Assembly: GCF_016401385.1 (NCBI RefSeq)
Contig: NZ_JAEACF010000002.1
Location: 124,001 to 188,000 of the forward strand
Reading direction: 5' to 3'
Source of the DNA: Fictibacillus halophilus
GTDB taxonomy: Bacteria; Bacillota; Bacilli; Bacillales; Fictibacillaceae
Length of the DNA: 64,000 bases
Part shown: in pieces, positions 10,591 to 46,826 of the stretch
Layout: the number at the start of each line of letters is the position of its first letter
Position numbering within the stretch: position 1 is the first letter of the stretch
The notes under the pieces: generated by a model
Databases searched by the model: none
What the model saw: the letters and a program-made list of their open reading frames with translations, nothing else
What the model was told of the DNA's origin: nothing
Program-made: the position numbers and the translations under genes

Positions 10591-10690
10591 GAGTTATGCT
10601 CGGTGATGAGGTTTTATGCTCGTTCCCGGACTTTTATGCTCGCTTATAGAATTTTATGATCGTTAGCGGCATTTTCCCCTCGTTCTCAGT
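10591..10690. repeat. Intergenic array A: five 20-nt degenerate repeats
   Basis: Five consecutive units at an exact 20-nt period: the core TTTTATGCTCG begins every 20 nt (units at 10591, 10611, 10631, 10651, 10671) followed by a variable segment, often ending GGA. Units 1-3 share TTATGCTCG exactly, unit 4 has TTATGATCG, unit 5 only the CTCG/CGTT part. It lies between the dipeptidase terminator and the upstream region of the SIMPL gene. Confidence 0.85.
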
Positions 10691-10720
10691 TCTCAATAAA
10701 ATCCTTCTCCACAGAAAAAA

Positions 10721-10765
10721 GCTGACATCCCAGGTGAACATAATTGTTCTATCTAGAATGCCAGC
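10721..10765 (-). terminator. Terminator of the dipeptidase gene
   Basis: Ten-bp stem GCTGGCATTC / GGGATGTCAGC (minus strand, two wobble pairs) followed by six T residues. Confidence 0.7.
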
Positions 10766-10779
10766 CTTTCCTTTTTAAA

Positions 10780-11709
10780 TTATATTTTAGAAATAAAATT
10801 CATGAAGTTCTGAGAAGCAAATCCTCGGACTTCTTCTTCGAAATAATGTTTTAACAATTCATTGATTAAGTTTTGAGTCATAGATGCATCTTCCAAGTCC
10901 GTAATAAGCTGCGAGATGCCGTCAAAATCAGAGCCTAGCCCTATTTGTTTTACGCCACCAAGTCCACAAAAATGGTCGATGTGTTTAATTAAATCACCGA
11001 TACTTGCTGAACCCTCATTCTTCGTAAATGGCGGGTTATACACAACATGTACGACTCCACCTTTATTAAACATCTCTTTTGCCATCTCATCCGTAAGGTT
11101 ACGCGGATGGTCACATAGTACACGTGAATTAGAATGACTAGCAAGCGGATAATCGGCAATCTCCATCACATCCCAAAAAGCACGATCACATAAATGAGAC
11201 ACATCGGTTAAGATCTTATGTTTATTATTGAAAGCAACGATCTCTTTTCCAAACACTGTCAGACCAGCTCCACGCGGTTCTTGTGCACCATCAGCTGCAA
11301 GATTCGCGTGATTCCATGTTAAACCGATCAAAAGAACACCGAGTTGATGCAGGATGCTTAACTTTGTAAGATCATCACCGATCGCATCTACTCCTTCAAG
11401 CGTAAGCACTGCTCCAATTTCTCCGTCCTTCAATGTTTGAAAGTCGTGCCAGTTCTTCAAATGCTTCATCTCTGGATTTTTACCAAGAACCTCTTTATAG
11501 AAATAGTCCACTTGCTGAAGAGCAGATTGGAATTTTTGATCGCTCGGAATAAAGGGCTCAATAAAAATCGCAAAGAACTGAACGTTCACTTTTCCCTTTT
11601 GTAGTCGTTTCTTATTTGTAGCAAGCTGTGGCGCATCTGCATAAGAGAGCCTGCCGTTTGTTTCCCATAGTTTCAATAATGCATCGCAATGCAAGTCAAT
11701 GACATTCAT
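10780..11709 (-). CDS. Membrane dipeptidase, peptidase family M19
   Basis: A 309-aa zinc dipeptidase of the renal-dipeptidase type. Visible metal-binding motifs: DLHCDAL at residues 5-11, the bridging Glu in LTLEGVDAIG, DVSHLCDRAFWD, and the conserved ASHSNSRVLCDHPRNLTDEM. LGSDFDGI near the C-terminus is another family block. It has no signal peptide, so it is probably cytosolic and hydrolyses dipeptides, possibly L-D or D-amino-acid containing. Start ATG behind GGTGGGA. Single gene with its own terminator. Confidence 0.92.
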   Translation of the reverse strand: MNVIDLHCDALLKLWETNGRLSYADAPQLATNKKRLQKGKVNVQFFAIFIEPFIPSDQKFQSALQQVDYFYKEVLGKNPEMKHLKNWHDFQTLKDGEIGAVLTLEGVDAIGDDLTKLSILHQLGVLLIGLTWNHANLAADGAQEPRGAGLTVFGKEIVAFNNKHKILTDVSHLCDRAFWDVMEIADYPLASHSNSRVLCDHPRNLTDEMAKEMFNKGGVVHVVYNPPFTKNEGSASIGDLIKHIDHFCGLGGVKQIGLGSDFDGISQLITDLEDASMTQNLINELLKHYFEEEVRGFASQNFMNFISKI

Positions 11710-11781
11710 GTTGATCCCACCATTTCTTTGTTAAATAATCTCCATATCCCTAAAAGAATACGTTTAGTTGAAATTTATTTT

Positions 11782-11790
11782 TGTTATAAT
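11782..11790 (+). promoter_or_regulatory. Extended -10 promoter of glnS
   Basis: TGTTATAAT (TGn-TATAAT) about 45 nt upstream of the glnS start. No good -35 hexamer lies 17 nt upstream, as is common for extended -10 promoters. Confidence 0.5.
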
Positions 11791-11835
11791 GTAAAGTATA
11801 TCTTAGTTTACATATAAGGAAAGGCTTGATACGGG

Positions 11836-13497
11836 ATGGAGAATAGTTCTTCTAATTTTATTAAAACAATCATCCAAAACGATCTGGAATCCGGAAAACA
11901 CAAGAAAATCGTTACTCGTTTCCCTCCAGAACCTAATGGATATCTTCATATTGGACATGCAAAATCAATCGTAATCAACTTCGGACTTGCGGATGAGTTT
12001 GGCGGAGAAACAAATCTGCGTTTTGATGATACGAACCCATTAAAGGAAGACCAAGAATACGTTGATGCGATTAAGAACGACGTCGAGTGGCTTGGGTTTG
12101 AATGGGAGAACCTTCGCTTTGCTTCCGATTACTTTGAAGAAATGTATGCGCGTGCTGTGCTTTTAATTAAAAAAGGAAAAGCGTATGTGGATGACCTTAC
12201 GGCAGATGAGATTCGTGAATACCGCGGAACGTTGACAGAGCCTGGTAAAGAAAGCCCTTATCGCAACCGTTCTGTAGAAGAGAACTTAGACCTTTTCGAT
12301 CGCATGCGTAAAGGCGAGTTCGGGAACGGTCAAAAAGTACTTCGTGCGAAGATCGACATGAGTTCACCTAATATTAACTTACGTGATCCTGTCATCTATC
12401 GTGTCTCTCACGCTACTCATCACAATACCGGTGATACTTGGTGCATCTATCCGATGTATGCATTCGCTCATCCAATTGAAGATGCGATCGAAGGCGTTAC
12501 ACATTCGCTTTGTACAACAGAATTTGAAGACCAACGCCCTCTTTACAACTGGGTTGTGGAAGAGTGTGAGATGGAAAGCCAGCCACAGCAAATCGAATTC
12601 GGCCGCTTAGGGTTAACAAATACGGTAATGAGTAAACGTAAGCTTAAGCAGCTTGTAGACGAAGGCTATGTGGACGGATGGGACGATCCACGCATGCCGA
12701 CAATCTCTGGACTACGCCGTAAAGGGTACACGCCTGAATCAATCGTTGAGTTTGTAAAAGCTGCCGGTGTTTCTAAAGGTTCTGGTGTAACGGACACAGC
12801 TATGCTTGAGCACTTTATCCGTGAAGATCTTAAGATAAAAGCACCTCGTACAATGGGAATTGTTGATCCATTAAAAGTGGTAATCACAAACTACCCTGAA
12901 GGACAGGTTGAGATGTTGGATGCTGAGATCAACCCAGAAAACCCTGAAATGGGAACACGTCAGATTCCGTTCTCGCGTGAAATCTATATCGAGCGTGAAG
13001 ACTTTATGGAAGATCCTCCGAAAAAGTACTTCCGTCTCTTCCCTGGCAACGAAGTACGCTTAAAGCACGCTTACTTCATTAAATGCGAGGATTTCATAAA
13101 AGATGAAAACGGCAATGTCGTTGAACTACATTGTACGTATGATGTGGAAACGAAATCCGGCTCAGGTTTTACAGGCCGTAAAGTAAAAGGAACACTTCAC
13201 TGGGTAGAAGCGACACAAGCTGTTCCTGCTGAGTTCCGTATTTATGAGCCGCTCATCTCTGATGAAGATATGGAAAAGGAAGAAGATAGTGAAGGCAAGA
13301 CATTCTTGGATTACGTGAACAAAGATTCTCTTATCGTAAAACAAGGATATATTGAAGCAAACTTGAAGGACGCGAAACCTCAAGATAAGTTCCAATTCTT
13401 CCGTCATGGCTACTTCAATGTTGATCCTAAGCATACATCAGATGATAAGATTGTTTTTAACGAAATTGTTTCACTGAAGAGTTCGTTTAAATTGTAA
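11836..13497 (+). CDS. glnS: Glutaminyl-tRNA synthetase
   Basis: A 553-aa class I synthetase. The HIGH motif sits in [15 protein letters not shown] (residues 38-41) and the KMSKS equivalent in NTVMSKRKL (about 264-268). The anticodon-binding beta-barrels follow, with [20 protein letters not shown] as a GlnRS hallmark, and it ends at the normal GlnRS C-terminus with no YqeY extension. It charges tRNA-Gln directly. Most Bacillaceae instead make Gln-tRNA by amidation with GatCAB, so its presence suggests acquisition by transfer or a second route. GluRS is the alternative identity, but the length, HIGH context and C-terminal barrels favour GlnRS. Confidence 0.95.
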
Positions 13498-13510
13498 AAT
13501 TACAATGAGA

Positions 13511-13538
13511 GAAGGGTTTCCAGCTGTGGAGACCCTTC
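13511..13538 (+). terminator. Terminator of glnS
   Basis: Eleven-bp stem GAAGGGTTTCC / GGAGACCCTTC (one T-G pair, 6-nt loop) followed by a T-rich tract. Confidence 0.85.
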
Positions 13539-13556
13539 TTTTCTTGTTGCAATATG

Positions 13557-13672
13557 TTTTTAGGACCTAAGTATGAGTTTATAGGCCCTTCAAATCCATT
13601 TATGGACCTTCAGAAAATTTTTATAGGCCGTTACAAAATGTTTATAGTCCTTTAAAATAATTTATAGACTTT
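13557..13672. repeat. Intergenic array B: six degenerate repeats of 20-22 nt
   Basis: The core TTTATAGGCC or a close variant (TTTTTAGGACC, TTTATGGACC, TTTATAGTCC, TTTATAGACT) recurs six times. Successive G positions are spaced 21, 20, 22, 21 and 20 nt. It lies between the convergent glnS and cwlK genes, downstream of the glnS terminator. Confidence 0.85.
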
Positions 13673-13719
13673 TCGACAAATAACCTTACAAATTAATTAA
13701 TTACAAGCTCATTAAACTC

Positions 13720-14247
13720 TTATTGTTTGGGTGGCCTTTCCCCATACCGCAACTCCCGAATACTTAACCCAAAGTCCATCTCAAGGTGCGGATAGTCCTT
13801 AAAACTTCCTTGAAAGTCTGCCCCCGATTTAAATCCTAATTTTTTCGCAATCTCGATAACTTCCATCCAATCAGACTGTCCATTCTGGTTATCATCTCGT
13901 TCTAGATCCCAGACGACAGAATCATCATCCAGCTTAAGAGCAAAATCAATCGCTAGACCGTAGTTATGATAAGATTCTCCACCTTCAACATGAGTAACAA
14001 TGGTCCCTTCTCTTGAACGCCCTTGTTCATACAGGCGATCCTGTTCTGCTGCAGATCGAAAATCATCCGTAATGACAATATTAATCCCTTTTTCAGACGC
14101 TTTTTGTATCAAAATATCACGGTTTTCTGCCACAATAGGATGCAACTCTGTAGGCAGAGGTGTATTTCTCTTTTTCCATTCCAATGTGATTAGATAAAAG
14201 ATAGATGCAAGGACCGCGAGAAACAGTATACTTTTGAATATTTTCAA
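13720..14247 (-). CDS. cwlK: Peptidoglycan L-alanyl-D-glutamate endopeptidase, M15 family
   Basis: A 175-aa protein with one N-terminal membrane anchor (residues ~5-21) and an extracellular M15 peptidase domain. Zinc ligands are visible as H94 and D101 in SYHNYGLAIDFAL and H154 in YPHLEMDF; the TDDFRSAAEQDRLYEQGR block is also conserved. It closely resembles B. subtilis CwlK, which cleaves the L-Ala-D-Glu bond of wall peptides. Start TTG behind AAAGGAG. The convergent position opposite glnS suggests no shared regulation. Confidence 0.9.
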   Translation of the reverse strand: MKIFKSILFLAVLASIFYLITLEWKKRNTPLPTELHPIVAENRDILIQKASEKGINIVITDDFRSAAEQDRLYEQGRSREGTIVTHVEGGESYHNYGLAIDFALKLDDDSVVWDLERDDNQNGQSDWMEVIEIAKKLGFKSGADFQGSFKDYPHLEMDFGLSIRELRYGERPPKQ

Positions 14248-14293
14248 TGAAACAAACTCCTTTTGTAATGCAGCACTCTACCTACAGTTTATA

Positions 14294-15634
14294 TCAACGA
14301 ATGGATTGCGGAAAAGAAAACACTCTTTTAGGATCGTATTTTTGATTGATTCGTTGAAGCCTCTCAACATTTCTACCAAAATACTCTTTCTCATAGTTTT
14401 TCAGTTCACCATATGGGAAATTCACAAATGATCCTTTGGTAATGGTCTCCAAATATTTGAACCTTTTTTCTACCCATCTTCTATTGTCTTCTGCAACGGC
14501 AGAATCTTCCCATACGGATTGTATGCCTAATATATAGCGTGCTTTTCGGTAGTAAAAAGAAGACTCTGTTTTGCTGACATTTCGAATCTGGCCGCCCATT
14601 GCATACACGGTAAGTGCTGCAAACACGGAACCTTCCGCACGTTTTTTTACAAGATTCACGATTGCTTCCACTTCTTCTCGATCGTATTCTTTGTATACGA
14701 AGCGTCCGGTCGATTTAAACTTTTCATATGGGGGATAAGTAGACTGAACTTCCGTAACAGCTTCTAAAAAGGTTAAAGATTTGGCAGAAATCTGAAAACC
14801 GTCTATTTTTTTATAAACGCTTAACAGTTTTAACGCTTCTTCCTTCGTTCCATAAAAAAATCCCCTGCCAAAGATAGCAAGTCCTTCTGAAACAGCATTA
14901 TACATGCTAGCATTCAAACACATTCGATCATCTAAATTTACAAGCCACTTTTGCCATATTCGTAAAAACTTGCCTAGCTCTTTTGTTGCGGCACCAGGCT
15001 TATATAGCTCAAACAGTGTCACTTGTTCTACTTTAGGCGGCAGTTTGAACGTCAAGGAAACAACCACTCCAAAGTTGCCTCCTCCTGCACCTTTGCATGC
15101 CCAAAACAGATCACTGTTTTCTGTTTCATTCACTTTTAAAATTTCACCTTTGTTGTTGATTAACTCCAGTTCATCCAAGCAGTCACAACCCAAGCCAAAC
15201 AACCGGCTAGAGAATCCCCACCCTGCACCAAGAACAAAACCACTTACGCCTACAGTTGGACAAGTTCCTCCTGGAAATGGATATCCTCTAGAACCTAACG
15301 CTTGATAGAGATCTTTGTTTTGAATACCTGCTTGAGCTTTAACTGTTCCATCTTCCTCATTAATAGCGACTTCATTTAAGCGACTGATGTCTATGACCAA
15401 AACACCATTACCAGTCGAATAGCCTTCGTAATGATGACCCCCTGATCGAATTCTTATATCCTTCCCATACTTTTGGGCCCAAAGAATGGCACGGCTCACA
15501 TCTTCATATTCAGAACAATAAACAATAACACTAGGAAATTTTTGAATAGCTCTGTTCCATTCTTGGCGTGCAATGTCATATTGCGGATCATCAGGTAAAA
15601 CTATTTCCCCCGTTAAACCTTGAAAGATATCCAT
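14294..15634 (-). CDS. FAD-binding oxidoreductase, berberine-bridge (BBE) type, CotQ/YgaK-like
   Basis: A 446-aa flavoprotein with the FAD-binding PCMH domain (about 30-205) and a C-terminal BBE domain (NYEKEYFGRNVERLQRINQKYDP). Both potential covalent FAD sites are visible: IRSGGHHYEGYS (His67/68) and GGTCPTVGVSG (Cys125), so a bicovalently bound FAD is likely. Length and sequence resemble B. subtilis YgaK and the spore coat protein CotQ (YvdP). No signal peptide is seen. Substrate unknown; family members oxidise sugars, alcohols or alkaloids with oxygen. Confidence 0.88.
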   Translation of the reverse strand: MDIFQGLTGEIVLPDDPQYDIARQEWNRAIQKFPSVIVYCSEYEDVSRAILWAQKYGKDIRIRSGGHHYEGYSTGNGVLVIDISRLNEVAINEEDGTVKAQAGIQNKDLYQALGSRGYPFPGGTCPTVGVSGFVLGAGWGFSSRLFGLGCDCLDELELINNKGEILKVNETENSDLFWACKGAGGGNFGVVVSLTFKLPPKVEQVTLFELYKPGAATKELGKFLRIWQKWLVNLDDRMCLNASMYNAVSEGLAIFGRGFFYGTKEEALKLLSVYKKIDGFQISAKSLTFLEAVTEVQSTYPPYEKFKSTGRFVYKEYDREEVEAIVNLVKKRAEGSVFAALTVYAMGGQIRNVSKTESSFYYRKARYILGIQSVWEDSAVAEDNRRWVEKRFKYLETITKGSFVNFPYGELKNYEKEYFGRNVERLQRINQKYDPKRVFSFPQSIR

Positions 15635-15718
15635 TCCTCAACACCCTTTTAAAAAAATGAGTTACATTTTAAAGTTTATGAGGAGTTGGCATGGCTAAAT
15701 TCTGGTATACAAAAATAA

Positions 15719-15746
15719 AAGACCAGGTCTCTGATCTCCTGGTCTT
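15719..15746 (-). terminator. Terminator of the rsbRD-like gene
   Basis: Nine-bp stem AAGACCAGG / CCTGGTCTT, 10-nt loop, then TTTATTTTTG on the minus strand. Confidence 0.85.
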
Positions 15747-15760
15747 CGTGCATTTATTCG

Positions 15761-16594
15761 TTATTGTTGTGAACCGATCGCTTGAGCGAGGCTCGACTTT
15801 ATGGAAACCTTCTCAAAGGATAGACCTAATTGAATAGCGGTCATTGCAATTTCAGGACGGATGCCAGACAAGGTTGACTTTACTCCTATGAGGCCAAGTG
15901 TTTCGATAAGTGAGAAAATTTGCTGAGCGACCATCGTATCAATGATTAAAACACCCGAGAGATCGATAAAGAGATGTGTAATCTCTTTTTCAGTACACTG
16001 TTCGAGCGTATTTTCTACAATATACTTTGCTCTTTGTGTGTCGATCACACCGATTAAAGGCAGAAGACCCATATGATTATTAAGTGCGATGACAGGTGAA
16101 CTAAGCTCATTGATCATCTCTTGCTGCGCAATTAATTTTTCCTCGCTATATCTCTGGTTTTCTTCAACAAACCAGGTCACAATTTTATTAAATGTTTCAA
16201 TAATAATTTCATTCCAGGCATCGATGATCGTTTGAGGATATTCCCCTTGGTGAAGATTAACGAATTCTTGTACTAAATTCAAATACTGCTTTTGTACATT
16301 GAAGAATTCTTTCATGATGACAGTTAAAGGTGTGTTCAAGTGCTCATCATCTTGAGCAATCATTAACACCCACTTTTCAAAATCTTTTAGGAACTTACTT
16401 TCTTCTGTTACAAAAACCTCACAGAAATGAACATGAAATTCATGATTTTGCTGTTTAAGCGTTTCTATCGTATCGGGATTCGTGGAAGCATATACCCCCG
16501 TGGCCTTTGATTTATCAATTGATCGGTACCAATCTTCCGTCAACTGCCAAGTTTTTTCAATTAAAAAAGAATGCAGCTCCTTATCTCTATGCAT
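15761..16594 (-). CDS. rsbRD: RsbR-family stressosome co-antagonist, RsbRD (YqhA)-like
   Basis: A 277-aa protein with the helical RsbRD N-terminal domain (MHRDKELHSFLIEKTWQLTE onward, about 1-155) and a C-terminal STAS domain (about 160-275). Thr186 (GVIDT) and Thr220 (LIIDT) sit 34 residues apart, the spacing of the two RsbT-phosphorylated threonines (T171/T205) of B. subtilis RsbRA. It should be part of the stressosome that activates sigma-B. It is a single gene away from an rsbRST operon, as in B. subtilis yqhA. Confidence 0.88.
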   Translation of the reverse strand: MHRDKELHSFLIEKTWQLTEDWYRSIDKSKATGVYASTNPDTIETLKQQNHEFHVHFCEVFVTEESKFLKDFEKWVLMIAQDDEHLNTPLTVIMKEFFNVQKQYLNLVQEFVNLHQGEYPQTIIDAWNEIIIETFNKIVTWFVEENQRYSEEKLIAQQEMINELSSPVIALNNHMGLLPLIGVIDTQRAKYIVENTLEQCTEKEITHLFIDLSGVLIIDTMVAQQIFSLIETLGLIGVKSTLSGIRPEIAMTAIQLGLSFEKVSIKSSLAQAIGSQQ

Positions 16595-16635
16595 CTCTTT
16601 TCCACTCTCCCCATCTACCCTATTTTATCAATATT

Positions 16636-16866
16636 TTAATCTTCGTCTTTTGCGTCCCAATCTTCAGGAATGGGTTCGCTCAAATACTCCTCAACCATCT
16701 TCTTATACTTTTCTAACTGTTCAAAATGTGTATTGAACTGTTCTTTGTTAATAAGATGCTGTTGACCGTCAAAGATTGTACGGATTTTATTCTGCTGAAC
16801 TAAGCTTTCTACTACCGCTTCAGGCATTGATAAGTATTCAGCCGTTTCTTTTATAGTAAGGTACAT
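16636..16866 (-). CDS. Small excisionase-type helix-turn-helix protein
   Basis: A 76-aa protein. The first 45 residues form a MerR-like/excisionase winged helix (MYLTIKETAEYLSMPEAVVE, followed by QNKIRTIFDGQQHLINKEQF). The tail is acidic (EPIPEDWDAKDED). No integrase or phage gene is near, so a role in excision is unlikely; such stand-alone proteins are usually small chromosomal regulators. Located 41 nt upstream of rsbRD on the same strand, so they may be co-transcribed. Confidence 0.78.
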   Translation of the reverse strand: MYLTIKETAEYLSMPEAVVESLVQQNKIRTIFDGQQHLINKEQFNTHFEQLEKYKKMVEEYLSEPIPEDWDAKDED

Positions 16867-16961
16867 GAATCATACATCCTGTCTAACTTTTGTTTAATCT
16901 TAGCTTACAGCAAGAACGGTATGGATTCAATATACCCTAATTCATTACTTCTAAAATCTAA

Positions 16962-18131
16962 TTAGTAGATTTTTTTATTTTGTATTAAATGTTTTTTCAT
17001 CAAAATGACAAAAAGGAGTAACGTTACGTCTACAAATCCATAAACCAAGCCATAACTCCCCAAATGATACAGAAAACTACCTAACAAGGGGCCGATCGAC
17101 ATTCCCATATATCTGAAAAAGTTATAAGCACCAATAGCAGTGGCGCGATTGGCTTGAAACTCTTGTGTAAGGAGAGCTGTCTGAACGGGTAATGACATAC
17201 CTAAGAACAGACCAAAAAATGAGATTGAAATGATCAATAAGATTAGAGATACATCTGAGACTAAGATAAACAACAATAGAGAGATTACGTTCAAAAGAGC
17301 AGAGTATACAATCACTTTTCGTTCATTGTATTTTCTCATTTTGCCTCCAATAAAACTTCCCACTACAATTCCGAGTGATAGTGGCAGAAAAACTAGACCT
17401 TTCTGTTCAACGGATAACGAATACCTTTCACTCATTATTGCCGGTAGAAATACTAGAAAGTTATACAGAGCGTAATATTGAATGAATCCCAAACCGATCA
17501 CGGTGTACCCTATACGGTTTTGCAAAATTGTAAGAAAATCTGAAATTTTGAAGTTCTGTTTTTTTGATGTACTTGGTTTTGTTTCGTGCAAAAAGATAAA
17601 ATTTCCTGCAAAGATGACGAATCCAACACAGATTAATGCAATAAAAATCATGTGAAAATCAAATGAAGCACTTAAAAAACCACCAACTACAGGACCTAAA
17701 ACTGGTCCTAGTGATACCATCATTTGAAACGTTCCCATAGGTTGAATCCGCTCTTTTCCTTCGAAAAGATCACCAATAACCGTTACCGCTACAACTGAAC
17801 CCGCAGCAATGCCTATAGCTTGCAGAGAGCGAAACACTAACAGAAATTCGATAGATGAAGAAAAATAACATCCGATAGTAGCCACTAAATAAATCAGGAT
17901 GCCCGATAGCATCACTTTACGCCTTCCGATCGAATCCGTAAGCGGTCCATAAACCATCTGCATTAAAGCGAGGAAAATCGTGTAGATCGAGATTGAAAAG
18001 TTAACCAAGAAAGGTGTTGTATGAAGTTCTTTCGTCACCTCAGGAATAAGAGGTACGTAGATCGTTTGAGAAAAAGGACCGAGAAACGCAGCAAGTGCAA
18101 CAAGATAGACTAACAATCTGCGGTGCTTCAC
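16962..18131 (-). CDS. MFS drug-resistance transporter, Bcr/CflA-like
   Basis: A 389-aa, 12-helix major facilitator. Motif A is GPLTDSIGRRKVML (about residues 63-76); the motif C region MVSLGPVLGPVVGGFLS supports a proton-driven exporter. Start GTG behind AGGAG. The organisation resembles multidrug or sugar-efflux pumps of the DHA1 group. A terminator lies just upstream (18165-18191), so it is probably transcribed separately from the preceding operon. Substrate unknown. Confidence 0.88.
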   Translation of the reverse strand: MKHRRLLVYLVALAAFLGPFSQTIYVPLIPEVTKELHTTPFLVNFSISIYTIFLALMQMVYGPLTDSIGRRKVMLSGILIYLVATIGCYFSSSIEFLLVFRSLQAIGIAAGSVVAVTVIGDLFEGKERIQPMGTFQMMVSLGPVLGPVVGGFLSASFDFHMIFIALICVGFVIFAGNFIFLHETKPSTSKKQNFKISDFLTILQNRIGYTVIGLGFIQYYALYNFLVFLPAIMSERYSLSVEQKGLVFLPLSLGIVVGSFIGGKMRKYNERKVIVYSALLNVISLLLFILVSDVSLILLIISISFFGLFLGMSLPVQTALLTQEFQANRATAIGAYNFFRYMGMSIGPLLGSFLYHLGSYGLVYGFVDVTLLLFVILMKKHLIQNKKIY

Positions 18132-18164
18132 AAATAAAAACTCCTATCATTTATAAAATAAAAA

Positions 18165-18191
18165 AGTCTGCTGAAATAATCCAGTCAGACT
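18165..18191 (-). terminator. Terminator of the HODM/dimethylamine operon
   Basis: Minus-strand stem AGTCTG-CTG / CAGCAGACT type, with one bulged base and an 8-nt loop, followed by TTTTTTATTTT. It separates the operon from the MFS gene. Confidence 0.7.
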
Positions 18192-18245
18192 CCCCTTATA
18201 TTAACTTTTTAAATTATACACCTTGTGAATCACTTTTTATAAGAT

Positions 18246-19415: not shown

Positions 19416-19438
19416 AACTACCTCACTTTGACCAAATT

Positions 19439-20395: not shown

Positions 20396-20407
20396 ATAGA
20401 CTCCCTC

Positions 20408-22409: not shown

Positions 22410-22419
22410 CACAGATTAT

Positions 22420-36131: not shown

Positions 36132-36136
36132 AATAG

Positions 36137-38202: not shown

Positions 38203-38430
38203 TTCCCACACGCCCACATGCTGCGAAAATAGTTTTCACCGGCTATTTCCATCTGCAACACGATCTTAGCATGCTTCGCTCACATACGTCATTGGAATCA
38301 TCCTCTTTCGTTATGTGTATTTGCGCGTTCCCACATACCCACACATCTCGAAATCAGTTTTCACTGGCTGATCTCTAACTGGATGTGATTTGATATGCTT
38401 CGCTTACTTATTTCATTGGAATCACGCCTT
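38203..38430. repeat. Tandem pair of about 98-nt structured elements, period about 125 nt
   Basis: Unit 1 (38203-38300) and unit 2 (38328-38424) share TTCCCACA, the loop block AGTTTTCAC, GCTTCGCT and CATTGGAATCA, at roughly 70 percent identity. Each holds a hairpin with loop TTTTCACYGG: stem AAATAG / CTATTT in unit 1 (38227-38248), ATCAG / CTGAT in unit 2 (38353-38372). Two stem pairs differ by double compensatory change. The enclosing gene-free stretch 37916-38702 holds nothing else I can name. Confidence 0.75.
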
Positions 38431-38702
38431 CCTTTAATTGAAGTAGTGTTCTTTGTTAACTACATATTAACTCATTCTAAATTTTATTTAAATATTCAGA
38501 ATAATCAATATTATGTGATTTAAGGTGTATTTATTCCTCTTTTTAGAGTCATACTCCTTCTTTCGTAAAATTTCTTTTTATTTCATCATATTTTAACAAT
38601 TTAAATAATGAATGTGTTTTTTTAGGCTATCACCTATACAACCTTCATAACATAACATGCATGTAGAAACACAACTACAAAAAAAGAGGAGTGTTTTGAA
38701 CC

Positions 38703-39809: not shown

Positions 39810-39815
39810 TTGATG

Positions 39816-39842
39816 CAGCCACTATTTTGAGGATGGTGGCTG
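39816..39842 (+). terminator. Terminator of the duplicated ATPase gene
   Basis: Seven-bp stem CAGCCAC / GTGGCTG with a 13-nt loop followed by TTTTGTT. Confidence 0.7.
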
Positions 39843-39891
39843 TTTTGTTATGATGAGCATAAGACAATCTTACATATGGAGGACATGTTTA

Positions 39892-40347
39892 ATGATGGAA
39901 ACAGAAAATACAAAAGCTGTTGAAGATCTATATTTTAACTTCTTACATGCGTGGAACGAGCGGAATTCACGTGCTATGGCTGATCATTTTACCAAGGACG
40001 GTGAGATGGTTGGGTATGATGGAAGTCAGGCATTTGGTCCTGAAGAAATTCATGCTCATCTCGAACCTATTTTCAGCAGCTTCCCAACACCTCCTTATTA
40101 TGCAAAAGTGAAGAACATTTCCTTCTTAAATGATGATGCTGTTATTGTTCGCGCTATTGCTGGCATGGTGCCGGTAGGAAAAACTGAACTATCTCAAGAA
40201 CTAAATACGCATCATACGGTGGTTGCAGTGAAAAATGATGAAAAATGGTTCATTAAACTTTTTCAAAACACACCTGCTCAATTCCATGGACGTCCTGAAC
40301 TTCTGAATCAGATGACTGAGGAGCTTCGTGCATTGCTTCCTGAATAA
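39892..40347 (+). CDS. SnoaL-like/NTF2-fold protein (SgcJ/EcaC family)
   Basis: A 151-aa protein from the ATG at 39892, 8 nt behind GGAGGA. One cystatin-like NTF2 fold: EDLYFNFLHAWNERNSRAMA at the start, FTKDGEMVGYDGSQAFGPEE, then HHTVVAVKNDEKWFIKLFQN. Stand-alone members are of unknown function; some bind small ligands or act as isomerases. Single gene. Confidence 0.8.
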   Translation: MMETENTKAVEDLYFNFLHAWNERNSRAMADHFTKDGEMVGYDGSQAFGPEEIHAHLEPIFSSFPTPPYYAKVKNISFLNDDAVIVRAIAGMVPVGKTELSQELNTHHTVVAVKNDEKWFIKLFQNTPAQFHGRPELLNQMTEELRALLPE

Positions 40348-40354
40348 AAACAAG

Positions 40355-40382
40355 GAAACCCGCTTAAGTTACAGCGGGTTTC
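40355..40382. terminator. Bidirectional terminator between convergent genes
   Basis: Ten-bp stem GAAACCCGCT / AGCGGGTTTC with an 8-nt loop, placed between the NTF2-like gene (+) and the small membrane protein (-). Confidence 0.85.
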
Positions 40383-40389
40383 TTCATAT

Positions 40390-40578
40390 CTATTTTCTTA
40401 ATATTTCCTTGAGCCCTTTATAAATCAATACGGCTCCAAAAACAAGAACCGTTAAAATCGCGATAATTTTAACAGCTGGACCGAATGCGGCTAAAAACGT
40501 GCCGCCTAGTGGAAGTGCAAGTAGAAAATAACCAGCTAATAAAGCCCCAATGAGTGTTAATACATTTGTATTAGACAT
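40390..40578 (-). CDS. 62-aa membrane protein, function unknown
   Basis: A small hydrophobic protein with two transmembrane helices (about 6-26 and 36-54) and a basic C-terminus (KGLKEILRK). The ribosome site AAGGAGG is excellent, but its AAGG is part of a 9-bp hairpin (40588-40618) that could hide it. Family not recognised; the terminator at 40355-40382 closes the gene. Confidence 0.7.
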   Translation of the reverse strand: MSNTNVLTLIGALLAGYFLLALPLGGTFLAAFGPAVKIIAILTVLVFGAVLIYKGLKEILRK

Positions 40579-40587
40579 ATTGCGCCT

Positions 40588-40618
40588 CCTTATAACAGTT
40601 TTTCTTCTCGTTATAAGG
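40588..40618 (-). promoter_or_regulatory. Hairpin that may sequester the ribosome site of the 62-aa protein
   Basis: Perfect 9-bp inverted repeat CCTTATAAC / GTTATAAGG with a 13-nt loop. On the minus-strand mRNA the 3' arm ends in AAGG of the AAGGAGG ribosome site, 9 nt before the ATG. If transcription starts upstream, translation would be structure-controlled; alternatively the dyad is a protein operator. Confidence 0.5.
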
Positions 40619-40670
40619 TATGCGCCGATGTGGAGAGTGGTTAATTCTACATTATGCAGGTTTTATTAGG

Positions 40671-40788
40671 TAATTTGTCCAATCTAGGAGTTAATCTGTC
40701 CAATGTTCACGTTAATCTGTCCGATTCACATGATAATCTGTCCAATGTCCCTAATAATCTATCCAATCTAAGAATTAATTTGTCCATT
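40671..40788. repeat. Intergenic array C: six 21-nt degenerate repeats
   Basis: The core TAATCTGTCCAAT recurs at an exact 21-nt period, beginning at 40671, 40692, 40713, 40734, 40755 and 40776. Variants are TAATTTGTCC and TAATCTATCC. The array ends at the mqnD stop codon. Read as protein it gives a heptad NLSNxxx, but the other arrays have periods of 20-22 nt, so coding is unlikely. Confidence 0.87.
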
Positions 40789-40789
40789 C

Positions 40790-41638
40790 TTAAATCTTCA
40801 ATAGATTCGTATAATCCTTCTTCGGCACGATGCCTTCTTCTCCAGCACGGTTCAATAGCGTTGTAATCGCCTCAAAGCCCTTGTCTCCAAGATCAGCGGT
40901 AAAATCATTCACATACAGATCGATATGGGATTTTGCAACGTCCTCTGAGAGCTCGCTCGCGTGCTGCATCACATAATCTCTAGATGCCTCAGGATTACGC
41001 CATGCATACTCTACCGATTTACGAATCCACTCAGAAATAGACTCTAAATCTAGTGAACGGCGTGCGATGATTGCTCCGAGTGGAATGGGTAGTCCCGTAT
41101 CTTCTTCCCACCAGCTCCCCATATCAGCCAACAGATTTAACCCGTAATCTTGATACGTAAAGCGAGCTTCATGGATAACAAGACCTGCATCAATCTTGCC
41201 GTCTTTTACAGCGGGCATGATTTCATTAAACGGCATAACGATGATCTCGCCTACTCCGCCTGGTACATTTTGAGCCGCCCATAAACGAAACAGCATGTAA
41301 GCGGTAGAGCGTTCACTCGGAACAGCCACCCTTGCTCCAGACAGCATGTTAGGCGTAACATCACCTGGCTCCTTCACCAAAACTAACGGACCACATCCAC
41401 GACCGAGCGCCCCTCCGCATGGAAGTAGAGCATATTTGTCCAAGACATAAGGAAGCGCTGCGTATGAGATCTTTAAGATATCAAGTTCATCTGACTCAGC
41501 AGCTAATCCGTTTGTAATATCAATATCTGCATATGTAACATCAAATTCTGGGGCACCAGAAACAAGACCATGTACCAATGCATGAAAAACAAACGTGTCA
41601 TTGGGACATGGTGAAAAAGCAATACTCATTTTACTCAT
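40790..41638 (-). CDS. mqnD: 1,4-dihydroxy-6-naphthoate synthase MqnD
   Basis: A 282-aa protein of the MqnA/MqnD family. The MqnD-specific N-terminal block FSPCPNDTFVFHALVHG (residues 8-24) is present, with GRGCGPLVLVKEPGD and GLVIHEARFTYQDYGL. It converts cyclic dehypoxanthine futalosine to 1,4-dihydroxy-6-naphthoate in the alternative menaquinone pathway. It overlaps mqnB by 4 nt. Array C follows immediately. mqnA, mqnC and mqnE are not in the window. Confidence 0.92.
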   Translation of the reverse strand: MSKMSIAFSPCPNDTFVFHALVHGLVSGAPEFDVTYADIDITNGLAAESDELDILKISYAALPYVLDKYALLPCGGALGRGCGPLVLVKEPGDVTPNMLSGARVAVPSERSTAYMLFRLWAAQNVPGGVGEIIVMPFNEIMPAVKDGKIDAGLVIHEARFTYQDYGLNLLADMGSWWEEDTGLPIPLGAIIARRSLDLESISEWIRKSVEYAWRNPEASRDYVMQHASELSEDVAKSHIDLYVNDFTADLGDKGFEAITTLLNRAGEEGIVPKKDYTNLLKI

Positions 41639-42297
41639 AACAAAACCTCCGCGATAACTTTACTAGCTCTCTCTAGTGTATCGAACGCTTCCTTCATACG
41701 CCAAGCAGAACGATCTCGCGGACCGATCGGATTTGATATCGAACGTATCTCAAGTACCGGCTTTCCAAATTCTTGTGCCGCTAGCGCTACCCCATAGCCT
41801 TCCATCGCTTCTGCTACAGCATCAGGCTCTCGATCCTGAAGACTCTTCGTAGTTTCAGAAGTTCCCGTCACAGTAGACAGTGTTAGAACGTGACCAAGCT
41901 GAACAGGTACTCCTGCGAGCTTTAATGACGTTAAACAATGCATGACCAGTTCGCTATCTGCTTTTATGCGAGTAGAAGCCCCAAAACCAAGTTCGTCTAA
42001 TGTGATGAATCCATCAGGAGATTCTGCACCAAGATCTCCTGAAATCATCTCATCTGCAATAACAAGTGTTCCAACATCTGCTTTACCCTGAAAACCTCCT
42101 GCAATTCCCATATTGATCACAAGGTCATAGTCTTTTGTTAATAAAGCTTTTGTTGTTTGGATACCCGCTGAGATCGGACCTACTCCAGCTAAGACCACAT
42201 CAACAGATGACGCTTGGCCAACCCCTCTTAAGATTGCCTCTTTCTCAGCAGCTACGGAAGTCATGATTAAAATACGGCGTTCGTTATTCATCGACAT
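41635..42297 (-). CDS. mqnB: Futalosine hydrolase MqnB
   Basis: A 220-aa nucleoside-phosphorylase-fold protein: VLAGVGPISAGIQTTKALL, INMGIAGGFQGKADVGTLVI and DAVAEAMEGYGVALAAQEFG (substrate-binding Glu-Met-Glu region). It removes hypoxanthine or adenine from (aminodeoxy)futalosine. Coupled to mqnD by an overlapping ATGA-type junction. MTA/SAH nucleosidase is the alternative, but the mqnD neighbour settles it. Confidence 0.92.
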   Translation of the reverse strand: MSMNNERRILIMTSVAAEKEAILRGVGQASSVDVVLAGVGPISAGIQTTKALLTKDYDLVINMGIAGGFQGKADVGTLVIADEMISGDLGAESPDGFITLDELGFGASTRIKADSELVMHCLTSLKLAGVPVQLGHVLTLSTVTGTSETTKSLQDREPDAVAEAMEGYGVALAAQEFGKPVLEIRSISNPIGPRDRSAWRMKEAFDTLERASKVIAEVLL

Positions 42298-42316
42298 GAA
42301 GATCCCCTTTCGCCGG

Positions 42317-43513
42317 TTAGCTTAATTTTTCAATGAACACTACTTTTAAATAGTTACCCTCTTTGAACTCTTTGTGTGTTTTAAAATCTTGTGGAAGCTT
42401 AAATTCTTCCAAAATGTTATACGTGCTCCCTGTTTGTTTAAATGCTGAGGCGATCATCTCTTTAAATTTTTTCATTCCAAACGTTGAGCAATTAGAAGAA
42501 GCTACGATTACACCGTTTCTTTCTGTAATCTGAATCGCTTGTGCTAATAAATCTGGATAATCTTTCCCAGCACTGAACGTATGTTTCTTAGAACGCGCAA
42601 AGCTCGGCGGATCTAGAATGACAAGGTCGAATGACAGCTCTTTTCGAACGGCATATTTAAAGTAGTTGAACACATCTTCTACAATGATGTCGTGGTCCTC
42701 ATAGTTCAAACCGTTCACACTGAACTGTTCTTGCGTCTTGCTTCGGCTTCTATTCGCTAAGTCAACGCTTGTCGTTTTCGCAGCTCCGCCAAGAGCAGCA
42801 GCAACTGAAAACGCACCTGTATAAGAGAACGTATTCAGAACGGTTTTCCCTTTCGCATATTGATCACGGATGGTCTTTCGCACATCACGCTGATCCAAGA
42901 ACACACCGACCATTGCACCATCATTTAGATAAACGGCAAAGTGGATGCCGTTCTCTCTTACGATCAGTGGACTAGGCGCTTGTTCACCTTCAACAAAATC
43001 GTTATCATCGATATATTTTCCTTTTACTGCAAAACGCTTCTTCTCATAGATGCCTTTTACCTTAACAAGTTCTTTAAGCGAAGCGATCACTTCATCCTTA
43101 AATGAGTAGATGCCTTCACTATACCAAGTTAGAACGTAGTAGCCGTTATAGTGGTCGATCGTCAGCCCACCGATTCCGTCTCCCTCACCGTTAAAAACGC
43201 GGAATGCTGTGGTTTCATAATTGTTAAAAAGTTCTTGTCGATGGTTGATCGCTTTTTTCAGTTTCTTCTCAAAAAATTCTTGATCGATGAGTTCTTGTGA
43301 ATTCTGCGTTAGTACCCAACCACGACCTTTATTTTGCTTGCCGTAGTATCCCTTACCTAGAAATACATTTTTTTCGTCAAACAATTCAATGATCGTTCCT
43401 TCTTCTTTCACGTTGCTAATATTCTGTACAGCATCCTCAGTGATTAGAGGGTAGCCTGTTTTTAAACCCTTCACATAAGAAGGTTTTACTTTTAATCGGA
43501 CATTCTTCTTCAT
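42317..43513 (-). CDS. Class I SAM-dependent rRNA methyltransferase, RlmI/YwbD-like
   Basis: A 398-aa enzyme with an N-terminal PUA domain (about 1-85), a linker, and a Rossmann methyltransferase domain: LNTFSYTGAFSVAAALGGA is the SAM-binding region and LVILDPPSFARSKKHTFSAG the catalytic region. It probably makes m5C in 23S rRNA like E. coli RlmI. It overlaps recQ by 4 nt and is followed by mqnB after 19 nt, so recQ, this gene, mqnB and mqnD may form one transcript. Confidence 0.88.
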   Translation of the reverse strand: MKKNVRLKVKPSYVKGLKTGYPLITEDAVQNISNVKEEGTIIELFDEKNVFLGKGYYGKQNKGRGWVLTQNSQELIDQEFFEKKLKKAINHRQELFNNYETTAFRVFNGEGDGIGGLTIDHYNGYYVLTWYSEGIYSFKDEVIASLKELVKVKGIYEKKRFAVKGKYIDDNDFVEGEQAPSPLIVRENGIHFAVYLNDGAMVGVFLDQRDVRKTIRDQYAKGKTVLNTFSYTGAFSVAAALGGAAKTTSVDLANRSRSKTQEQFSVNGLNYEDHDIIVEDVFNYFKYAVRKELSFDLVILDPPSFARSKKHTFSAGKDYPDLLAQAIQITERNGVIVASSNCSTFGMKKFKEMIASAFKQTGSTYNILEEFKLPQDFKTHKEFKEGNYLKVVFIEKLS

Positions 43514-45651
43514 CTTGTCACCCGTTTCTTATTTTCGTTTTGCAGCAAGTAAACTTTAATCATAAAGTAACTTACTTCTTCAGGAAGTAATTCTTTGATT
43601 GGCTTTAACTTTTCTCCGCCGGCTTGTTGAATGGCATGTTCAATTTTTGAGACATAATCATCTGGAATAAGATCCTCCATCTGAACGTCCATTCCCTCTT
43701 GCATGCATTGAACGAGATGACTCTCGACCGTACTCACGGCCAGATTGCGGTGTTCAGCAATTTCATCTACAGACATTTTCTCTTTATAGAAAGTGTATGT
43801 TTCAAGATGAGAATCAGGCGTTGCCTTTTTTGCAGGTGCTTTTGAAACCGTACTTTGATCAGCACTTTCTCTTCGCTCAGGATGCTCAGCCAAATAATTA
43901 GAAATAGCAGAGATAAAACGCTCACCATATTTCTCTAGTTTATTTTGACCAACACCCGTCACACTCAAAAATTCAGTTCTTGACTCAGGCAGTTTCACGC
44001 ACATATCTTTTAAAGCGGTATCTGCAAAAATAACGAACGGCGGAACGTTCTCCTGTTCTGCTATCGTCTTCCGCACGATTCGAAGTTCTTCAAATAGCGG
44101 ATCATCTGCAGCCACTTGTTTGGTTACGACTGCTTCTTTACGCATGATTTGTTCTTTTCCAAGCAGAATATCTTTCCCTTTTTCTTTTATATAAAGAGTT
44201 GGGAACGTCCCATGCTCAACGGCAATGATTTCTTGTGAGATAAAAAATTCAATGAGATCTGTTATTTCTTTCGTGCTTTTTTCTTTCAACATGCCGTAAG
44301 TCGGTAGCTTATTAAATCTCATCTCTAAAACCTTTTTATTCTTGGAACCGGTCAAAACCTGTGCGATCAATGTCTTCCCGAACCGCTTTTGCCCCATACG
44401 CACAATACAGGATAATACGATCTGCGCCTCTCTTGTCACATCGATACTATCGCGATTATCGGTACAGTTTCCGCACCGACCGCATGGTGGAATTTCTTCA
44501 TCACTAAAATAACGGACAATTGATTGCTGCAAACAGCTTTCGGTGTAGCAATAGTCCACCATGAGTTGAAGCTTCTCCAGCTCTTGCGCCATACGATCCT
44601 GCTCGCTAGACTGATCGATCAGAAAACGCTGTACTTGAACGTCTTGAGAAGAATACAGCAGGATACATTCACTTGGAAGTCCATCACGTCCAGCACGCCC
44701 AGCTTCTTGATAATAACTCTCCATGTTTTTAGGCAGCTGAAAATGGATAACATAACGGATATTCGATTTATCAATACCCATTCCAAATGCCGAAGTAGCC
44801 ACCATAACCGATGACTCATCTTGAAGAAACTGCTCCTGCTGCTGCATGCGCTCGTTGTCATTCATCCCTGCGTGATAGCGAGAAACGTTGATGCCGCTTT
44901 TTTGCAGGGTTTCATAAAGCTGATCAACCGTCTTACGTGTTGCAGCGTATATGATTCCCGCTTCTTTCTCGTTCTTTTTAAGGAAATCTTTTAAATATGA
45001 AAGCCGGTCTTGTCCCTTAATCACGGAAAAGGATAAATTTTCACGTTCAAATCCTGTTAATACCGTCTTGTTCTCATCAATATCGAGAGACCAGCAGATG
45101 TCCTGACGAACACGTGGTGTAGCAGTTGCGGTTAACGCCAGTACCACCGGACGATTTGGAAGATTCCCGATCATTCTTTGAATACGTTGATAGCTCGGTC
45201 TGAAGTCGTGTCCCCATTGCGAGATACAGTGAGCTTCATCTACGGCAATTAAAGGGATATCAATCTGTCTCAAATGATCCATAAAGTCATAAGATTCTAG
45301 GCGTTCTGGTGCAATATATAAAAGTTTGTACTCACCGCTTTTTGCCCTATCCATTCGTTCTCTCGCCTCTGACGCTGTAAGTGAACTATTGATGAAGGCC
45401 GCGGATATACCTAACTGCAATAATGTATCAACCTGATCTTTCATTAAAGAAATTAAAGGAGAAATAACAATTGTCGTTCCTTCAAAAACAAGGGCAGGTA
45501 TTTGATAACAGATCGATTTCCCGCCACCTGTAGGCATAACACAAAGGGTATCGTCACCTGCTAAAACCGATTGGATCGCTTGCTCTTGTCCATTTCGGAA
45601 TGAAGAATAACCGTAATGCAAATTCAGCATTTGCTTTGCTTTTTCTATCAA
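43510..45651 (-). CDS. recQ: ATP-dependent DNA helicase RecQ
   Basis: A 713-aa RecQ. Walker A MPTGGGKS (39-46), DEAH (138-141) in AVDEAHCISQWGHDF, motif VI ESYYQEAGRAGRDG, the RQC zinc-binding cysteines (CYTESCLQQ, CGRCGNCTD), a winged helix, and an HRDC domain (about 525-605). The C-terminal region carries a helix-turn-helix DEIAEHRNLAVSTVESHLVQ (about 645-664), typical of Bacillales RecQ. Start TTG behind GGAGG. It unwinds DNA in recombination and repair. Confidence 0.95.
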   Translation of the reverse strand: MIEKAKQMLNLHYGYSSFRNGQEQAIQSVLAGDDTLCVMPTGGGKSICYQIPALVFEGTTIVISPLISLMKDQVDTLLQLGISAAFINSSLTASEARERMDRAKSGEYKLLYIAPERLESYDFMDHLRQIDIPLIAVDEAHCISQWGHDFRPSYQRIQRMIGNLPNRPVVLALTATATPRVRQDICWSLDIDENKTVLTGFERENLSFSVIKGQDRLSYLKDFLKKNEKEAGIIYAATRKTVDQLYETLQKSGINVSRYHAGMNDNERMQQQEQFLQDESSVMVATSAFGMGIDKSNIRYVIHFQLPKNMESYYQEAGRAGRDGLPSECILLYSSQDVQVQRFLIDQSSEQDRMAQELEKLQLMVDYCYTESCLQQSIVRYFSDEEIPPCGRCGNCTDNRDSIDVTREAQIVLSCIVRMGQKRFGKTLIAQVLTGSKNKKVLEMRFNKLPTYGMLKEKSTKEITDLIEFFISQEIIAVEHGTFPTLYIKEKGKDILLGKEQIMRKEAVVTKQVAADDPLFEELRIVRKTIAEQENVPPFVIFADTALKDMCVKLPESRTEFLSVTGVGQNKLEKYGERFISAISNYLAEHPERRESADQSTVSKAPAKKATPDSHLETYTFYKEKMSVDEIAEHRNLAVSTVESHLVQCMQEGMDVQMEDLIPDDYVSKIEHAIQQAGGEKLKPIKELLPEEVSYFMIKVYLLQNENKKRVTR

Positions 45652-45819
45652 AACTTAATTAGCCTCCCTCAGGTAGAGTCATCTCTTGATTATAAAGGTA
45701 CTGACTCCACATAGCAAAGACACATCTTACCGTTTTCTTCCGATAAAATAGACAGACTACTTAATAAAATGTGATACATTAGGAATTGGAGAAAGAAATG
45801 AAAAAGGAGTTTTTTACAT

Positions 45820-46167
45820 ATGACAAATCATGAAAACAACAATTTGCCACCAAAAACATGTTCAATTGAAAGACTTGTGACGATGCCTGCTGATGTTGCT
45901 AAAGTTCTAGAAGGCAAGAAAACGGCAACTCGCCGAAACGGACGCTATGCAGACATTGGGGAAATCATGGAATTAGAAGGGTATTCGTTCGTAGTGAACA
46001 ATGTATACCGACAATCTCTTGGTGAACTAACCGATCAACACGCTCAAGACGAAGGCTTTGCAACGGTTGAAGAGTACAAGAACGCTATTCTTTCCTACCA
46101 CCCCGGTATGCCGTGGCTTCCTCATATGCAAGTATGGGTTCACGAATTCAGTCCTGCTAAAGGCTAA
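45820..46167 (+). CDS. ASCH-domain-like protein
   Basis: A 115-aa protein with PUA/ASCH-like features: VTMPADVAKVLEGKKTATRR (basic TATRR near residue 43 in the ASCH RNA-binding position) and ADIGEIMELEG. Members are thought to bind RNA. Start ATG behind AAAGGAG. The small membrane protein at 46179 starts 11 nt after it, so the two are probably co-transcribed. Exact function unknown. Confidence 0.78.
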   Translation: MTNHENNNLPPKTCSIERLVTMPADVAKVLEGKKTATRRNGRYADIGEIMELEGYSFVVNNVYRQSLGELTDQHAQDEGFATVEEYKNAILSYHPGMPWLPHMQVWVHEFSPAKG

Positions 46168-46178
46168 ATCATAACTTG

Positions 46179-46622
46179 ATGGATATTTTGTATCGCATTT
46201 TCTTGTATATCCATATTTTAAGCGTGATCATTTCTGTTGGGCCGTTCTTTATCTTGTTCCCACTGATTAAAAAGCTGCGAACAGCAACAGGTGATGAGAT
46301 GCACGCCCACCTTGGCACGTTTCGGTTTGTCGTTTGGCTCGCCAAACACGCCGGTCACGTCTTGGTATTATCAGGTTTTTTGCTTGTTTTTACTGGACCA
46401 TGGACGTGGGATACACCGTGGATCCTCATGACTTTAATCATCTTGTTCTGCTCGCTGTTCTTTTTAGCCCGCGCCTTTTCACCGACGCTTCGTAAGTTTG
46501 ATGATGAAGTGCATGATAAAGTCGGACTAGCTTTGAAATTACAGCGTGCTGTTTGGATTTACCTCGGGTTATTGATGATCATGCTTTGGTTTATGGTTGG
46601 AAAGCCATATTTGTGGTTTTGA
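46179..46622 (+). CDS. Four-helix membrane protein, function unknown
   Basis: A 147-aa hydrophobic protein with four helices (about 4-24, 50-68, 76-96, 120-142). The early segment YIHILSVIISVGPFF recalls DUF2269/CopD-like proteins with histidines in helices. Start ATG at 46179 after the ASCH gene; the in-frame TTG at 46176 is less likely. No clear ribosome site, so translational coupling is possible. Confidence 0.72.
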   Translation: MDILYRIFLYIHILSVIISVGPFFILFPLIKKLRTATGDEMHAHLGTFRFVVWLAKHAGHVLVLSGFLLVFTGPWTWDTPWILMTLIILFCSLFFLARAFSPTLRKFDDEVHDKVGLALKLQRAVWIYLGLLMIMLWFMVGKPYLWF

Positions 46623-46644
46623 GATTGATTGATATGATTGTGGA

Positions 46645-46674
46645 AGCTGACTCTTGAGTTGTGAGGGGTCGGCT
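46645..46674 (+). terminator. Terminator after the ASCH/membrane protein pair
   Basis: Nine-bp stem AGCTGACTC / GGGTCGGCT (two wobble pairs, 12-nt loop) followed by seven T. Confidence 0.8.
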
Positions 46675-46721
46675 TTTTTTGACGTGGTGTCCTTTTGAGG
46701 TGGACAAATTTAGCTTGCCAG

Positions 46722-46826
46722 ACTAAAAATGTGGATTGGAGCCTAAAACTCGTGGATTGAACGACTAAACTTTTGGATTCAGTGTGCTTTTTTCTGGATT
46801 CGGAAGCTATTTTGTGGATTCATTTG
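46722..46826. repeat. Intergenic array D: five degenerate repeats of 20-21 nt
   Basis: TGTGGATT or close variants (CGTGGATT, TTTGGATT, TCTGGATT) recur with GG at 46733, 46754, 46775, 46796 and 46816, i.e. spaced 21, 21, 21 and 20 nt. Three units also carry CTAAA 5-8 nt before the core. It lies in the 314-nt gap between two plus-strand genes, after a terminator; nothing else was seen there. Confidence 0.8.

Follow-up and report, generated by a model that had tools for sequence, protein, structure and literature searches.

Four intergenic arrays of short direct repeats lie in a 64,000-nucleotide stretch of the Fictibacillus halophilus genome (assembly GCF_016401385.1, contig NZ_JAEACF010000002.1, positions 124,001 to 188,000), the whole of which is called the window here. 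The described elements closest to them in kind are the Staphylococcus aureus repeat (STAR), from a relative in the same taxonomic order, and the BOX element of pneumococcus. STAR consists of intergenic direct repeats with a short conserved motif and variable, locus-specific spacers; 1–7 motifs are found at three loci, the repeats expand and contract in place and their function is unknown (PMC3532100). The motif is one 14-bp GC-rich word, T(G/A/T)TGTTG(G/T)GGCCC(C/A), and the spacers are at least 40 bp long (PMC3532100). BOX has two end modules and a variable count of one tandem central unit, and is dispersed, slow to move and predicted to form an RNA stem-loop (PMC3049150). The TAACTGA direct repeats of Beggiatoaceae resemble the arrays in forming many short intergenic direct-repeat sets per genome with a patchy distribution; they use one heptamer word and in the main genome lie mostly just upstream of start codons (PMC4679880).

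The Fictibacillus arrays share with STAR an intergenic conserved motif with variable, locus-specific spacers and expansion and contraction within the locus, and differ from it in their many words, their 20–21 bp step and, in one subfamily, a constant end module. In its exact form, the STAR word does not occur in the window (1 match at 2 mismatches, 2.08 expected by chance) and has 1 match in 283 fetched loci. Like BOX, the arrays are dispersed, slow to move and modular, with an end module and a variable number of tandem central units; unlike it, they have one end module in what we found, a central word that varies by locus and no RNA structure signal. As for a second end module, the opposite end is ragged in the end-module subfamily, and composites of two facing arrays occur at three loci. 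In plasmid iterons and partition centromeres, about 5–10 tandem sites at ~20–22 bp lie on the same face of the helix; the word varies from replicon to replicon, and each plasmid has one set, next to its rep or par genes. The arrays, in contrast, extrapolate to 90 to 140 per genome and lie beside unrelated genes where examined; of the 8 proteins encoded next to the window arrays, none is of a replication or partition kind (one has no Pfam match).

The arrays are not described among the literature matches listed, which were open-licence papers. The original prediction, made from the letters of the window, had held that no named element is known to have this property, a statement that needs qualifying given how close STAR and BOX are in kind. 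Repetitive extragenic palindromic (REP) sequences and bacterial interspersed mosaic elements (BIME) are ruled out by the lack of any folding excess on either strand, as a palindromic hairpin unit would give. Clustered regularly interspaced short palindromic repeats (CRISPR), whose spacers are usually of similar length to the repeat, do not fit either: the spacers here are ~10 nt long and are copied with the unit, and none of the 8 proteins scanned beside the arrays belongs to a cas family. Clusters of DnaA boxes were likewise rejected: the consensus TTATNCACA occurs 4 times in the window, against 3.03 by chance, and never inside an array. We suggest instead that the arrays are modular interspersed intergenic repeats whose units may be helix-phased sites for an inferred DNA-binding protein, a reading from sequence that we hold tentatively, at a little under even confidence.

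Abundance, step and words of the arrays

An array comprises a few to 20 tandem units of ~20–21 bp, each made of a core of ~10 nt and a spacer of ~10–11 nt. Four arrays of five or six units had been predicted for the window, and both reading of the sequence and a word-blind detector recover them at those places and with the cores assigned to them. The detector, which seeks 7-mers with at most one mismatch between neighbouring copies at steps 20–22 and requires at least four copies, returns precisely these four from the non-coding DNA of the window. An 8-mer run that requires only 3 copies returns the same four and nothing more, against 0.2 in each shuffle. All figures for excess and placement come from sampled stretches, not whole genomes, and the words were chosen post hoc.

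The predicted excess of 20–22 nt periodicity in intergenic DNA is confirmed by two measures. The detector finds 11 arrays in 464 kb of the window's own genome (the window and a further 400 kb taken from it at regular intervals), one of them, in L009, overlapping a doubtful open reading frame (ORF) call, and 0 in 10 dinucleotide shuffles. Non-coding autocorrelation is elevated at lags 20, 21 and 42 (z 4.6, 8.1 and 3.8) and also at some shorter lags, such as 4, 9 and 12; small genes that escaped calling account for part of the signal at multiples of 3, though not at lag 20. In 2.06 Mb from 12 genomes, the window included, the detector finds 43 non-coding arrays, where 20 shuffles of each stretch lead one to expect 1.55, a total that is not a fair density because six of the genomes (G232, G251, G276, G081, G294 and G097) were chosen for having GATAAA-type matches and some stretches of G276, G294, G097 and G000 were positioned at known matches. 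The even samples of G000 and G004 are fair: 11 arrays in the 464 kb of the own genome and 12 in 340 kb of G004, which extrapolates to a Fictibacillus density of ~90 to 140 arrays per genome.

The step is narrowly distributed. Among 209 steps, 86 are 20, 110 are 21 and 13 are 19, 22 or 23, so that 196 of 209 are 20 or 21; the pace of about two helical turns had been predicted correctly, and the stated 20–22 nt narrows to mostly 20–21. Across lag bands from 11 to 59 there are 35 arrays at 20±1, 8 at 41±1 and 0–5 in every other band (for example 5 in the 11 band and 4 in the 53 band). Those at 41±1 are probably the same arrays at doubled step. Long arrays can be dimeric, with steps that alternate 21, 20 and two alternating spacer types, giving a 41–42 nt higher-order repeat. 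One array in G276 (L143:1218-1608) has 20 units of GCAAATAAA with two alternating spacers.

The words are many and recur. Each array had been thought to have a core of its own; this does not hold, as the exact array-3 core, a 13-mer, occurs 16 times in the own genome, in ten arrays that were read, against 0 for the reversed pattern. The 11 own-genome arrays carry 7 words, the arrays of G004 about as many, and certain words recur across species, such as ATCACATAA. In the genome collection, from which records near the window's genome were possibly left out, the tandem array-3 core is found in 10 stretches, all in Fictibacillus records. Two loci, L203 in G294 and L209 in G097, consist of two blocks in fixed order, GCTGATAAA units and then GCGCCAAAT units, with a GAGCGC half common to both.

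Arrays of different words can share an end. In G004, arrays of words such as TTGAGCGAAAC and GGGTGAAAC terminate at one constant 31-nt module, GYGAA-CGTGTAATAAATAWAAGAACACGTACCGTAA. The opposite end is ragged in this subfamily. Of 18 Fictibacillus genomes searched, 16 contain the module, with 156 copies in all and 0 control matches; the search pattern fixed the half-sites ACGTGT and ACACGT, and the loop varies among copies. A chain of at least three units runs into the module at 29 of 36 inspected copies, compared to 23 of 192 control windows. A reversed promoter was considered for the module and dropped, as the putative –10 letters differ by eye between copies. The module is absent from the non-coding DNA of the window even with up to 9 mismatches allowed; the four window arrays therefore belong to other subfamilies.

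Across the order, a triple of GATAAA at 19–22 nt steps gives 883 matches in 84 of the 299 genomes of the order, against 37 matches in 22 genomes for the reversed pattern. This figure undercounts the class, as the window's own genome lacks the GATAAA word. A phylum sample from outside the order gives 31 matches in 23 of 391 genomes, at most 4 in each, against 18 control matches in 14 genomes. Several of these look coding or simple-repeat-like, and in the phylum beyond the order the GATAAA architecture stands close to background. In G232, a single contig of 4.25 Mb, GGATAAA clusters with at least two linked pairs lie at 125k, 192k, 455k and 516k on the minus strand and at 4157k on the plus strand, all five within ~0.52 Mb of the contig ends, with opposite strands on the two sides of the contig start. 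Isolated pairs occur at two other places (806k and 1192k), and the reversed control gives 2 matches. If this contig starts at the replication origin, the arrays would be origin-proximal and replication-oriented, a post hoc observation.

Turnover at orthologous sites and dispersed copies

Sites persist while words turn over, and the number of units changes in place. Units that are gained and lost in the orthologous spacers of relatives had been proposed as a sign of the class, and both kinds of change are seen in the sampled stretches and at the relatives' sites. Orthologous arrays are present at the array 1 site in 5 of the 9 Fictibacillus spacers read, with varying unit number, and those of G005 and G008 carry more units than the own genome. 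Array 2 is present at 3 of 9 orthologous sites read. Array 4 has the same word at 7 of 9 Fictibacillus sites read, another word in G001 and none in G007. At L230 (own genome, contig C7, ~8088), an end-module array is down to about two units, probably via unit-to-unit deletion; G008, G307, G005, G308 and G003 have several more. A copying mechanism that extends spacers at a fixed step had been put forward as one explanation. It is half borne out: duplication and deletion of units occur in place, but the recent copies visible in array 1 take the spacer along.

Replacement of one word by another is clearest at the array 3 site. Among 13 genomes, the site holds ATTGGACAGATTA in 3, AAGTGGACAGTAAA at the same position in 4, related units or their remnants in 3 and no such units in 3. 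The same pair of words is found at the L172 site, in 6 and 2 of the 8 genomes having the flank among 15 searched. The L223 site, a convergent gap, carries array and module in 13 of 15 genomes, with the module altered in a few and at least three word types; G271 has the array without the module and G001 has neither. The common process proposed for arrays of unrelated words is supported: arrays of different words share an end module, and one orthologous site can carry different words in different genomes, which together suggest a shared system.

Three loci of the own genome, L006, L173 and L174, are composite. Each has five units of ATTGGACAGATTA, a gap of somewhat less than 100 nt and inverted AAGTGGACAGTA units, and these two words are the pair that replace each other at other sites. 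The three share spacers in order. Over the ~98-nt array, L006 shares 86% identity with L174 and 88% with L173; between L173 and L174 the identity is 77% across 243 nt. In the 400 nt to each side, the second array was the only further match among the three that the search reported. The L006 site was inspected in 11 of 15 genomes, and six have the composite, with 4 to 6 left-side units. In one of these six, G003, most of the middle and most of the right array are lost, as array-to-array deletion would do. The likeness of the three loci suggests some dispersal or gene conversion between sites. The likeness between L004 and L172 was also considered as dispersal; there the two share a gene tail, and co-duplication is the better reading.

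Setting of the four arrays and their placement

Array 1 (10594..10682, minus strand) has 5 units at step 20 with the minus-strand word CGAGCATAAAA, the last unit being degenerate. It follows the 3' end of a Peptidase_M19 gene for a membrane dipeptidase (10780..11709, minus strand). Array 2 (13557..13667, minus strand) has 6 units at step 20–21, with the minus-strand word GGCCTATAAA, which reads TTTATAGGCC on the plus strand. It lies between a convergent pair, a gene of the glutamyl/glutaminyl-tRNA synthetase family on its left (11836..13497, plus strand) and one of the D-alanyl-D-alanine carboxypeptidase family (Peptidase_M15_4 / VanY) on its right (13720..14247, minus strand). At its edge (13670..13681, plus strand), the letters TTTTCGACAAAT were seen by eye, and the similar TCGACAAAT is found, also by eye, at the edges of several other arrays, for example L179 and L190. 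Array 3 (40671..40788, minus strand) has 6 units at step 21 with the minus-strand word ATTGGACAGATTA and begins directly past the stop codon of a menaquinone-biosynthesis gene (VitK2_biosynth, 40790..41638, minus strand). Array 4 (46732..46821, plus strand) has 5 units at step 20–21 with the word TGTGGATT. It is preceded by a TGTCC...GGACA inverted repeat (46688..46706, plus strand), which is conserved or altered in the orthologues read, and upstream lies a small ORF (46176..46622, plus strand) with a weak DUF2269 match below the Pfam cut-off.

Placement after the 3' end of a gene, as had been noted, is true for all four. Across the sampled stretches, with gene orientation from longest-ORF calls only, convergent gaps are enriched (15 of 43 arrays compared to 112 of 832 background gaps) and divergent gaps depleted (4 of 43 compared to 233 of 832); codirectional gaps hold 24 of 43 arrays and make up 487 of the 832 background gaps. 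The idea that words always lie in sense orientation to the gene upstream was dropped, since both orientations occur. The genes flanking the four window arrays, 8 proteins, have no common function. Rfam gives no match above the gathering score at the arrays; its only two matches in the window are elsewhere, a T-box leader (RF00230, 28086-28329) and a cobalamin riboswitch (RF00174, minus strand, 53765-53944).

Conserved cores, helical phase and competing explanations

Cores and spacers evolve differently in two sets of orthologues. For array 4 in seven species, identity is 0.962 in the core, 0.733 in the spacer and 0.654 in the following 80 nt; when the core mask is slid along the units, the difference is reached in 21 of 2000 random shifts, of which ~22 are expected to be shift zero. 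For the AAGTGGACAGTAAA arrays in four species, the core is 0.988 identical compared to 0.715 for the spacer. Column conservation over 47 arrays is 0.919 in the core and 0.612 in the spacer, a descriptive figure because the core was picked as the most conserved window. The A/T content also follows the helix. Within the unit, a fraction of 0.226 of its power falls at 10.5 bp and 22.1% at 21 bp; the corresponding values in 1325 control intergenic windows are 0.115 and 9.7%. Spacer A/T tracks core A/T at offsets 10–12 (permutation P 0.0005 for 47 arrays and 0.0375 for the 22 end-module arrays). This covariance is the strongest hint that pitch rather than letters is common to the arrays. Reading on one helix face by a DNA-binding protein, the other explanation first proposed, is supported indirectly by core conservation and the 10.5-bp phasing.

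Under the protein-binding reading, each unit would be a putative site for a protein that assembles along one helix face, with one protomer or dimer per two turns. Selection would act on the core, on the step and on how A/T is phased in the spacer, whose letters would be free to change. Words would be uniform within an array through duplication from one founder unit, and words would differ between arrays if founders differ within a relaxed recognition specificity or if several paralogous proteins take part. The likeliest putative role would be to shape the chromosome or, at gene 3' ends, to insulate adjacent transcription units from each other.

Several observations weigh against this reading. 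One genome holds at least seven words, which is hard for one protein. In array 3, compared among three very close species, core and spacer are equally conserved (0.92 and 0.915), and some arrays, such as those of G299 and G205, are exact or near-exact repeats, as plain slippage gives. Ordinary intergenic DNA has an A/T covariance of the same sign, about nine times weaker and itself beyond its permutations. Four of the 12 sampled genomes (G251, G081, G018 and G268) yielded zero arrays, so that the class is not universal in the order. A bolder form of the protein-binding reading, which we consider unlikely, is a satellite-like chromosomal binding system of the Bacillales type: where present, about a hundred arrays per genome would serve as platforms for helix-phased filaments, and the word could drift provided that step and A/T phase stay the same. 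Such a system would be the bacterial equivalent of centromeric satellites that evolve fast, with shape and pitch instead of sequence as the heritable signal and words turning over at fixed sites.

Among the alternatives, selfish repeats of the BOX, STAR or miniature inverted-repeat transposable element (MITE) type fare best and are a possibility we take seriously, though a lesser one. They would be mobilised in trans by a transposase or other enzyme recognising the units and the end module, the host would gain nothing and gene 3' ends would merely be tolerant. The dispersed copies with shared, ordered spacers at L006, L173 and L174, their facing arrays in inverted order, the constant 3' end module with its ragged opposite end and the patchy presence between species all fit this explanation. 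Neither a clean empty site nor a target duplication was seen at the sites read, and a site that is kept across the genus while its word changes is unlike a freely jumping element; the likeness of L004 and L172, as said, is better read as co-duplication. This explanation and the protein-binding reading could also hold together.

We find it improbable that several unrelated protein families, with one word each, own operator arrays that have converged on two-turn spacing. Recurrence of words at several loci would be expected of such families, and iterons and plasmid centromeres are sequence-specific tandem sites near this spacing. The explanation is at odds with arrays of different words that share an end module in one genome, with word swaps at one orthologous site and with the lack of a common function among the 8 proteins around the window arrays.

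Elements that act as transcripts, in 3' untranslated regions or as small RNA repeats, are less probable still. Array 3 starts at a stop codon, folds better than its own shuffles (z –3.9) and has no terminator between it and the gene in a simple scan (loop limit 8), which also calls none between the genes and arrays 1, 2 and 4. The folding of array 3 is not general: over 70 arrays (30 with the end module and 40 others) z averages –0.14 to –0.25 whichever strand is folded, a weaker signal than in control intergenic windows (–0.54), and array 4 gives –0.71. By eye, several arrays lie beyond longer-loop terminator-like hairpins, including ones that separate arrays 1, 2 and 4 from a gene next to them, and words are found in both orientations with respect to the gene upstream. 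That the window arrays lie between terminators is not counted as shown, since the simple scan does not call these hairpins.

Neutral slippage, by which ~21-nt tandem duplications arise and decay, is very unlikely. Units are duplicated and deleted (array 1 in G008 and G005, L230 in the own genome) and dimeric 41–42 nt repeats exist, as it predicts. Neutral decay would erode core and spacer alike, whereas two orthologue sets differ strongly between them, and slippage would neither single out 20–21 nt nor phase A/T at 10.5 bp. Chance, in the form of degenerate AT-rich words picked by eye, is refuted for practical purposes by the shuffles, which return no array against the 11 observed, and by the reversed control of the exact 13-mer core.

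If the arrays are as common as the Fictibacillus samples suggest, the class is a major non-coding feature of these genomes. Different words that agree in two-turn step and in A/T phase make sequence separable from pitch, and an old question becomes testable: can a nucleoid or architectural protein select helical phasing instead of a word? For the search for the binding factor, natural experiments are at hand in the constant end module and in the sites where words are swapped.

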